DNA of 64,000 nucleotides. It comes from Halomarina salina (lineage in GTDB: Archaea; Halobacteriota; Halobacteria; Halobacteriales; Haloarculaceae). A program made the translations under genes and the position numbers. The stretch is taken from positions 2,108,001 through 2,172,000 of the forward strand of contig NZ_JALLGW010000001.1 of NCBI RefSeq assembly GCF_023074835.1, written 5' to 3'. Within the stretch, counting starts at the first letter, position 1, and the number at the start of each line of letters is the position of its first letter. Below are positions 1,989 through 5,474 of this stretch, piece after piece. The notes beneath the pieces are model-generated. The model saw only the letters and a program-made list of their open reading frames with translations. It did not search any database and was not told the DNA's origin.

Positions 1989-2195
1989 ATGAGTGTCTCC
2001 GGCCTGTGTGAACTCTGTTCGACGAACGAGATCGTCGACGGCTGTGACCGCTGTGGCCGACTCGCCTGCGAGGTCCACTACGACAGGGAGACCGGCCTCT
2101 GTACCGACTGCCTGAAGGAGTCGGGCGGGACGCCGGACGACGAACCAGAGCGCCAACCGGACGGTCCGGACGGCGTGGATACCTACCAGTTCTGA
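1989..2195 (+). CDS. Small zinc-finger protein (68 aa)
   Basis: A compact 68-residue protein. Residues 1-45 carry CELC, CDRC, a single Cys followed by a His, and CTDC, giving eight possible ligands for two zinc ions in a B-box-like cross-brace. The C-terminal ~25 residues are an acidic tail ending DTYQF. The start at 1989 is favoured because a GGTTATCC promoter box lies about 27 bases upstream, which suits a leaderless transcript. Haloarchaea encode many such zinc micro-proteins with regulatory or interaction roles. The function of this one is unknown. Confidence 0.8.
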   Translation: MSVSGLCELCSTNEIVDGCDRCGRLACEVHYDRETGLCTDCLKESGGTPDDEPERQPDGPDGVDTYQF

Positions 2196-2265: not shown

Positions 2266-2388
2266 CCTAATCTATTAGGTGGAACCATGAGGTGAGAACC
2301 CCGTGTTCTCTCGGACGAAGCAGGCGGGGTCAATTCCGTTCGTGGGCACGATATGGAAGGCTTACCTGCCTGCTTCTTTCCTCACGCC
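2266..2388 (+). ncRNA. Candidate structured RNA with possible pseudoknot
   Basis: Non-coding gap between the convergent zinc-finger and pyrF genes. An AT-rich palindrome CCTAATCTATTAGG (2266-2279) could serve as a promoter for a transcript starting near 2297-2300. Complementary segments are ACCCCG (2298-2303) with CGGGGT (2325-2330), GAAGCAGGC (2317-2325) with GCCTGCTTC (2368-2376), and an inner hairpin 2334-2358 with a GGGC loop. The first two interleave, giving an H-type pseudoknot. A rival hairpin GAGAAC/GTTCTC (2294-2310) excludes the first stem. The 3' end is pyrimidine-rich (TTCTTTCC). Existence, strand and ends are inferred from complementarity only. Confidence 0.45.
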
Positions 2389-2439
2389 GCTACGACCCGT
2401 GAGCGGGCGCGCCGAGGGGCGTTCGACGCTCCCGGCCGT

Positions 2440-3231
2440 TCACCGGTGACGGTTGAGTCGCTTCTTGAGCCGTTTCGCCGCCTGTCCGGCCGCCTTGTCG
2501 AAGGTCTCTCCCTCGCCCGCGAAGATGATGCCGCGCGACGAGTTGACCAGACCGACGCCGTCCGCGAGGCCGAACTCGGCGGCCGCCTCCGCGTCGCCGC
2601 CCTGCGCACCCACACCGGGGACGAGGAACGGGAGGTCCGGGACGAGTTCGCGGACGCGTTCGAGTTCCTCGGGCGTCGTCGCGCCGACGACGAGGCCGAC
2701 GTTCCCGTGGACGTTCCACTCGTTGGCACGCTGGGCGACGTACTCGTAGAGGCGCTTGTCCGTGCCGACCTCGAGGTTCTGGAAGTCCGACCCACCGGGG
2801 TTGGAGGTGCGACAGAGGACGAACACGCCCTTCTCCTCGCGCGAGAGGAACGGTTCGAGCGCGTCTCTGCCGAGGTACGGGTTGACCGTAATCGCGTCCA
2901 CGTAGTCGAGGAGGTTCGCGTACTGACGCGCCGTGTTGCCGATGTCGGCGCGCTTCGCGTCGAGCAGGACGGGGACGTCCTTCCCCTCGGCGTAGGCGAC
3001 CGTCTCCCGGAGCGACCGCCAGCCGTCGCTGTCCTCGTAGAACGCCGCGTTGGGTTTGTAACACGCGGCGTGTTCGTGGGTCGCGTCGATGATGCGTCGG
3101 TTGAACGCCCAGCGCGGCAGGTCGTGGTCGCGCAGGTGGTCGGGCAGTCGCTTCGGGTCGGGGTCGAGGCCGACGCTCACGACGCTGTCGACGGCGTCGA
3201 TGCGCTCGCCGAGTCGCTCGAAGAAGCTCAT
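2440..3231 (-). CDS. pyrF: Orotidine 5'-phosphate decarboxylase
   Basis: A 263-residue TIM-barrel enzyme that decarboxylates OMP to UMP, the last step of de novo pyrimidine synthesis. The catalytic DxKxxD signature is LLDAKRADIG, giving D91, K93 and D96. GLDPDPKRLP near residue 21 and the phosphate-binding end (VPGVGAQGGD, then SSRGIIFAG) are also present. Length and these motifs place it in the longer type 2 PyrF subfamily. The ATG at 3231 (MSFFERLGE) is preferred over an ATG seven codons upstream, because family members start here. No other pyrimidine gene is adjacent. Confidence 0.95.
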   Translation of the reverse strand: MSFFERLGERIDAVDSVVSVGLDPDPKRLPDHLRDHDLPRWAFNRRIIDATHEHAACYKPNAAFYEDSDGWRSLRETVAYAEGKDVPVLLDAKRADIGNTARQYANLLDYVDAITVNPYLGRDALEPFLSREEKGVFVLCRTSNPGGSDFQNLEVGTDKRLYEYVAQRANEWNVHGNVGLVVGATTPEELERVRELVPDLPFLVPGVGAQGGDAEAAAEFGLADGVGLVNSSRGIIFAGEGETFDKAAGQAAKRLKKRLNRHR

Positions 3232-3308
3232 TGCCGGGCGTGGCGCGCCCACCGAATAGAGTGTTACTATCCGAAATAGCTACGTTCGTGAGAATCGTTC
3301 TCGAAGCC

Positions 3309-3830: not shown

Positions 3831-4574
3831 ATGGATGACGGTGTGACGGTCGCGGTCGACCCGCACGTGCACTCGGCCGCGTCCTACGACGGCCACGACC
3901 CCGTCGACCTGTTGCTCGAACAGGCCGCAGCGGTCGGACTGGACGGTATCGTCGTCACCGACCACGACACCATCGAGGCGTCACTGCGCGCCGCCGACAT
4001 CGCAGACGACTACGGGTTAGTGGGCATCCCCGGCGTGGAGGTGTCGACCGCTCAGGGCCACCTGCTGGCCATCGGCGTCGAGGACTGTCCGCCGCCGCGT
4101 CGCTCGCTCGACGAGACGGTCGACATCGTCCGGGACATGGGTGGCGTCGCCGTCGTCCCGCACCCCTTCCAGCGCACCCGACACGGCGTCCGTCGTCGGT
4201 TCATCGACGACTGTGACGGCCTCGAGGTGTACAACTCGTGGGTGTTCACGGGCTACCGCAACCGCCGCGCACGCCGGTTCGCGAGCGAGAAGGGCTACAC
4301 GCCGGTCGCCGCCAGCGACGCCCACGTCGCACCCTTCATCGGGCGAGCGTACACCGAACTCGCCGTCGAGGACGTCGACTCGCCCGCGGAGGTGGACCAG
4401 GAGGACGTCCTCGACGCGCTGGACGAGGGGGCGACGGCGACGACGGGTCGGCGGCAGCCGCTCCACCGGAGCGCCTCCCACTACCTGTCCGGGGCGGCCC
4501 GGAAGGCGGGCTACGCGCTTCGACAGCGACTTCCGGGGATCGGCTCGGTCCCTACCCCGGCCGACTCCTCGTAG
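3831..4574 (+). CDS. PHP-domain metal-dependent phosphoesterase, copy 1
   Basis: A 247-residue PHP-domain protein. The N-terminal metal motif is DPHVHSAASYDGH (H12, H14), followed by VTDHDTIE, GVEVS, a VVPHPFQ histidine and the late ASDAH motif. These are the conserved metal ligands of PHP phosphoesterases, which often hydrolyse nucleotide or 3',5'-bisphosphate substrates. A TTTTAACC box about 27 bases upstream supports a leaderless start. The C-terminal ~60 residues (HRSASHYLSGAARKAG) are basic and may contact nucleic acid or membrane. A paralogue with strong protein and DNA similarity follows at 4692. The substrate is unknown. Confidence 0.85.
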   Translation: MDDGVTVAVDPHVHSAASYDGHDPVDLLLEQAAAVGLDGIVVTDHDTIEASLRAADIADDYGLVGIPGVEVSTAQGHLLAIGVEDCPPPRRSLDETVDIVRDMGGVAVVPHPFQRTRHGVRRRFIDDCDGLEVYNSWVFTGYRNRRARRFASEKGYTPVAASDAHVAPFIGRAYTELAVEDVDSPAEVDQEDVLDALDEGATATTGRRQPLHRSASHYLSGAARKAGYALRQRLPGIGSVPTPADSS

Positions 4575-4691: not shown

Positions 4692-5474
4692 ATGGGAAGA
4701 GAGGTGTCCGTGGCCATCGACCCGCACGTCCATTCGGAGGGGTCGTACGACGGACACGAGCCGGTCGAGCGGCTCCTCGAACGCGCGGTCGAGGTCGGAC
4801 TGGACGGCATCGTCGTCACCGACCACGACACCATCGAGGAGTCGCTGCGTGCTGCCGATCTCGCCGCCGACTACGGGTTAGTGGGGATTCCGGGTGTGGA
4901 GGTGTCGACCGCCCAGGGCCACCTGCTGGCCATCGGCGTCGAGCAGCGTCCCCCGCCCGGCGACCCGTTCGACGAGACTGTCGAACGGGTCCGAGAACTG
5001 GGCGGCGTCGCCGTCGTCCCCCACCCGTTCCAGCGCACCCGACACGGCGTCGGGAAGCGGTCGGTCGGCGACTGCGACGCGGTCGAGGTGTACAACGCGT
5101 GGGTGTTCACGGGCTACCGCAACCGTCGTGCCCGTCGGTTCGCGGACGCGAACGGCTACCCCGGCGTCGCCGCGAGCGACGCCCACTCGGCGGCGTACGT
5201 CGGCCGAGCGTACACCGAACTGCTGCTCGACGTGGACTCGCTGGACGACCTCACCGCAGAGCGCATCGTCGACGAACTCGCTGCCGGGAGCGCCACCATC
5301 GAGGGTCGCCGCCAGCCGCTCTGGCGGAGCGCGAGCCACTACGCCTCGTGTACGGGCCGACGAGCACGCGGGGTCGACCCGCGACGACCGTCGCTCCGCA
5401 CGCTCGGAGCGGTCGCCGGCGGTGCGGTCGTGGGGAGCGTCGCGCGCGCTGGCGTCGCGCAGTTCCGCTCGTAA
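4692..5474 (+). CDS. PHP-domain metal-dependent phosphoesterase, copy 2
   Basis: A 260-residue tandem paralogue of the preceding gene with the same ligands (DPHVHSEGSYDGH, VTDHDTIE, GVEVS, VVPHPFQRTRHGV, ASDAH). The two copies share long near-identical DNA stretches, including the region coding for GVEVSTAQGHLLAIGVE, and diverge mainly in the C-terminal tail. The 117-base gap holds its own AT-rich boxes (CTTATAAGTATAG near 4640 and AGTATAGGGG near 4675), so it may be transcribed separately. It is convergent with the reductase gene, 42 bases away. The duplication looks relatively recent. Functional divergence is possible but not visible in the active site. Confidence 0.85.
   Translation: MGREVSVAIDPHVHSEGSYDGHEPVERLLERAVEVGLDGIVVTDHDTIEESLRAADLAADYGLVGIPGVEVSTAQGHLLAIGVEQRPPPGDPFDETVERVRELGGVAVVPHPFQRTRHGVGKRSVGDCDAVEVYNAWVFTGYRNRRARRFADANGYPGVAASDAHSAAYVGRAYTELLLDVDSLDDLTAERIVDELAAGSATIEGRRQPLWRSASHYASCTGRRARGVDPRRPSLRTLGAVAGGAVVGSVARAGVAQFRS

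Follow-up and report, generated by a model that had tools for sequence, protein, structure and literature searches.

A candidate small RNA gene of a Halomarina clade and the palindrome that it shares with DUF7344 genes

The question addressed here is whether the gap that separates pyrF from a small zinc-finger-like gene in Halomarina salina harbors a gene for a structured RNA, and whether such an RNA switches between alternative folds. A preliminary description of the window, i.e., the whole stretch of 64,000 nucleotides analysed here, had read this region as a pseudoknotted RNA with two mutually exclusive folds. The strings on which that description was built are all exact, including ACCCCG and its partner CGGGGT (2325-2330), GAAGCAGGC (2317-2325) and GCCTGCTTC (2368-2376), the inner hairpin, the GAGAAC..GTTCTC pairing, and the palindrome that precedes them (Table 1). 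It was also correct that the plus strand carries no gene for some 900 bases; no convincing one is encountered until about 3.3 kb, and pyrF is encoded on the minus strand. Two adjacent related genes of the window (3831-4574 and 4692-5474) are probable genes of PHP-type metal-dependent phosphoesterases in tandem duplication.

Comparison with related genomes indicates that the element is real and strongly constrained, and that the earlier reading was right on a structured RNA and wrong on a switch. The element is probably a small non-coding RNA gene of about 65-83 nt on the plus strand, specific for one clade and belonging to a tiny, DUF7344-linked regulon. This reading is based on a near-invariant core between diverging flanks, an invariant stem, indels that break the reading frame, and a palindrome positioned 36 nt upstream.

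Table 1. Positions in the window of the element, its predicted parts and its neighbors.
Feature	Position	Strand	Remarks
Small zinc-finger-like protein gene	1989..2195	+	Upstream neighbor, not part of the element; without Pfam family
CCTAA-N4-TTAGG palindrome	2266..2279		Candidate operator/promoter element; arms conserved in three species
Spacer between palindrome and core, 36 nt	2280..2315	+	Constant length, variable sequence; putative promoter interior, presumably untranscribed
Competing hairpin GAGAAC/GTTCTC	2294..2310	+	Window genome only
5' pseudoknot arm ACCCCG	2298..2303	+	Complementarity to 2325-2330 kept in three species
Predicted transcript start	2315..2317	+	Deduced from the 36-nt spacing, which recurs between the palindrome and the start region at near-leaderless DUF7344 genes
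Predicted small RNA (conserved core and 3' tail)	2316..2396	+	95-99% identity over 2316-2389; core folding z -3.5 to -4.7
12-bp stem, 5' strand	2317..2328	+	Pairs with 2365-2376; invariant in three species
Inner hairpin, GGGC loop	2334..2358	+	Invariant except for an unpaired one-base insertion in H. rubra
12-bp stem, 3' strand	2365..2376	+	Pairs with 2317-2328; invariant in three species
Pyrimidine-rich 3' tail TTTCCTCACGCCG	2377..2396	+	Kept to about 2390, divergent beyond
pyrF, orotidine 5'-phosphate decarboxylase	2440..3252	-	Neighbor, not part of the element; Pfam PF00215, E 1.2e-33

The element occupies the same gap, between the small zinc-finger gene and pyrF, in the window genome, H. 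rubra and H. oriensis, all members of Halomarina, and these three sequences constitute the comparative evidence. A nucleotide search of 146 genomes of the family matched it only in two further genomes of the genus, which a scan of one genome per species with an exact 23-base pattern identified as H. rubra and H. oriensis; five of the eight Halomarina genomes lack it. The core (2316-2391) is about 95-99% identical across the three species, while the alignable flanking region is about 77-79% identical and the zinc-finger-like neighbor protein 61-79%. Differences within the core consist of a C/T change in the internal loop and, in H. rubra, the gain of one base next to the inner hairpin and the loss of one base from the tail; in the three-species alignment all of these fall at unpaired positions. 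A strong U-tract terminator was not found in the 3' tail.

Searches of plasmid, phage, and viral collections for the element returned nothing, and a covariance model run over the family and 392 genomes of the order recovered the three known members and otherwise isolated weak matches. The match in G030 and G093 (L050/L052) lies inside a sulfatase-like coding frame, and those at L051 and L115 have many of their pairs broken, and all of these were therefore taken as chance. An orthologous RNA that was suspected in the same gap of genomes G004 and G005 proved to be an unrelated interspersed repeat. This repeat (L038:1318-1440 and L037) is about 120 bp long and has a TATA-like box and a strong hairpin; its dispersed copies number about 40 or more in each of G004 and G005, 16 in G006, 8 in G001, and 1-2 in the window genome and its sisters.

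Folding analysis of the stretch in the preliminary description gave a z value of -2.5 relative to dinucleotide shuffles, and nearly all of this signal derives from one long hairpin, in which the 12-bp stem encloses an internal loop and the inner hairpin. The core on its own gave values of -3.5, -4.7, and -4.2 in the three species, and for a longer stretch the plus-strand value was below that of the minus strand in every one of them. In view of these values and of its invariance in the three species, the long hairpin exceeds chance. No covariation was found in the 12-bp stem, which never varies across the three sequences. The preliminary description had named conservation of the paired bases in relatives as its test, and there the long stem retains its pairs and the competing hairpin does not. 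A structured plus-strand RNA, with its long stem and inner hairpin conserved, is the likely part of the original proposal, and the mutually exclusive folds are the unsupported part.

The AT-rich sequence ahead of the element keeps both arms of its palindrome in the three species and is now read as a candidate operator or promoter element. Exactly three CCTAA-N4-TTAGG sites are present in each of the three carrier genomes, one before the element and two before genes of small proteins assigned to DUF7344 (Pfam PF24035), a domain of unknown function; the reversed control pattern had no exact match in these genomes. When one mismatch was allowed, six further sites appeared in the window genome versus 22 for the control. 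At DUF7344 genes whose start is clear, the palindrome lies 38-46 nt ahead of the start codon. Of the roughly 40 regions upstream of DUF7344 genes in the genus, only six contain the palindrome, all of them in carriers, and the remaining regions display background-level inverted repeats. The d46-type gene has the same neighborhood in all carriers. The d44-type gene has kept the palindrome next to differing neighbors, and the palindrome therefore travels with the gene rather than with its surroundings. Outside the three RNA carriers no clear d46-type orthologue is present (46-57% identity among them; next best 37%), and the d44-type subfamily (55-66%) is restricted in the same way, some members of which are without the palindrome. 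One of the six one-mismatch sites of the window genome, CCTATCTGATTAGG on the minus strand of contig C2 (L120:1501-1514), is followed at a distance of about 49 nt by yet another DUF7344-like gene, which is a possible fourth member of the regulon. Two exact copies of the pattern are also present in G004 and one in G006 (L064:1501-1514, L068:1501-1514, L065:1501-1514), where no recognised DUF7344 gene adjoins it.

In each of the three species exactly 36 nt separate the palindrome from the core, even though the intervening sequence differs. If the DUF7344 genes are near-leaderless, their spacing is the same, and from this match we infer that transcription of the RNA starts at about 2315-2317, where the long stem begins. 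With such a start, both the competing hairpin and the 5' pseudoknot arm would lie upstream of the transcript, in untranscribed promoter DNA. The main weakness of this start is that no TATA box is recognisable in the RNA promoter where the DUF7344 promoters carry a TATA-like stretch. A scan of the stretch for sigma-70-type promoters and intrinsic terminators, which is ill-suited to archaea, yielded nothing.

These observations bear on the alternative folds. The overlapping pairings that suggested a regulatory switch between two mutually exclusive folds are present in the window genome alone: of the six pairs of the competing hairpin, which is complete there, two are left in H. rubra and one in H. 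oriensis, which is no better than slid controls. Conserved alternative pairings were accordingly not found in the three species, as the competing hairpin is lost from both relatives, and the element does not sit in the leader of a gene that it could control, with the next plus-strand gene about 0.9 kb away and pyrF convergent. A switch is thus highly improbable, and already largely refuted. The variable part of the element across the three species is the stretch 2294-2313, and an apparent switch that lies in the one stretch that is not constant illustrates why alternative folds deduced from one sequence should be checked against relatives. The proposed H-type pseudoknot appears weakened rather than dismissed, because its complementarity survives sequence change: the arm remains complementary to CGGGGT at six of six positions in each species, through a one-base register shift in H. 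rubra and two G-U wobbles in H. oriensis. Both of the pseudoknot's stems need base 2325 and so cannot be complete at once. A transcript that starts further upstream (around 2280-2298), includes the variable stretch, and forms a pseudoknot of ACCCC with GGGGT beside the long stem would account for an upstream arm that has stayed complementary to GGCGGGGTC in three species through sequence changes, two of them pair-preserving wobbles, and the center of the palindrome could take the place of a TATA box for a start near 2298. Nevertheless, such a transcript is unlikely. The shuffle p-values of the arm are 0.03, 0.10, and 0.004 in C/G-rich DNA of related species, and no two-sided compensatory change was seen in its pairing in these species, one stem (B) being invariant and the other (A) kept by one-sided changes only. 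Moreover, a spacer that keeps its 36 nt while its sequence varies freely is typical of a promoter, and the palindrome of the DUF7344 genes stands 38-46 nt before the start codon and not about 26.

It is also conceivable that the conserved block does not function as a plus-strand RNA but as a DNA element, or as the 3' untranslated region or terminator of the minus-strand gene pyrF. The inverted repeat folds on both strands, and pyrF ends 44 bp from the block and is directed into it. Against this stand the palindrome, whose distance on the plus side is the same in every carrier, the better folding of the plus strand in all three species, internal loops that are conserved as much as the stem, unlike in a terminator, and the absence of the block from pyrF in the other five genomes of the genus; we consider an origin of the constraint in pyrF or in the DNA itself doubtful. 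Open reading frames also cross the core, yet the single-base insertion and deletion in H. rubra break every one of them, no start or stop codon is conserved, and the pattern of conservation is not that of third codon positions, which leaves very little room for a small encoded protein.

A candidate regulator of the small RNA gene is a DUF7344 protein. No paper naming DUF7344 was found in the literature searched. In the AlphaFold model of the d44 protein (mean pLDDT 83) the elements follow one another as in a winged helix, and Foldseek gave weak matches to winged-helix regulators such as SrnR, HlyU, and CadC (E-values of 0.05 and above), which are only suggestive; on the predicted structure, DUF7344 is a probable winged-helix fold. 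That it binds CCTAA-N4-TTAGG is a guess. In the proposed mechanism, the palindrome would be the operator of DUF7344, or of a related winged-helix regulator, which would control its own genes together with the RNA. Transcription would begin flush with the long stem, and the released hairpin RNA could then act in trans, either by way of its tail and internal loop, both invariant, or through binding to a protein. Pairing of the loops or tail of the RNA with DUF7344 mRNAs was no better than with shuffled sequences, and no target was found among them. The DUF7344 proteins are 46-66% identical between species versus 95-99% for the RNA, and the near-invariance of loops and stem beside faster-evolving proteins suggests a protein partner or several targets. 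A further-reaching possibility, to which we attach rather little weight, is that the near-invariant RNA of this one Halomarina clade and two fast-evolving DUF7344 winged-helix proteins could make up a circuit of three genes, in which the RNA would be the non-coding arm, for example as effector or RNA ligand of the proteins; if true, this would be an archaeal protein-RNA regulatory circuit of an undescribed type. To our knowledge, regulators have been identified for only a few archaeal small RNAs. The genome comparison provides a candidate RNA together with a candidate class of regulator, DUF7344, and an exact, testable putative binding site, and the palindrome common to the element and the DUF7344 genes is the part that should be of use to specialists.

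Known RNA classes and regulons offer several comparisons. Rfam 15 holds no family for the element at gathering or relaxed thresholds (the best weak match, a miRNA with an E-value of 3.7, is due to chance), and a tRNA elsewhere is the sole family match in the window. An H/ACA guide RNA was rejected for either strand on account of a misfit of pocket and box: TTC or TTT stands where the box is expected, about 14-16 nt 3' of the guide pocket, and the tail has no conserved ACA. With H-type pseudoknot riboswitches the element has in common that its complementary segments interleave on paper; it differs from them in having neither an Rfam match nor a controlled downstream gene, and in a 5' arm that is probably untranscribed. 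The putative regulon resembles that of CsmR, a 13-kDa winged-helix protein of Haloferax volcanii that binds TATCA(N4)TGATA beside the TATA box (PMC13286277), in combining a small winged-helix regulator with a 5-N4-5 palindrome beside the core promoter. The half-sites are different, however (TATCA/TGATA versus CCTAA/TTAGG), and 65 genes have CsmR peaks versus three exact sites here. The element is a conserved, structured, non-coding sequence, as expected of an archaeal intergenic small RNA, and can provisionally be filed with the haloarchaeal members of that group. Like sRNA132 and s479 of Haloferax volcanii (PMC6560208, PMC8155600), it is short, intergenic, present in one copy in a haloarchaeon, and probably equipped with its own promoter. 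Unlike these RNAs, it has different neighbors, is without a matching sequence in the other genera that were searched, and shares its putative promoter palindrome with DUF7344 genes.
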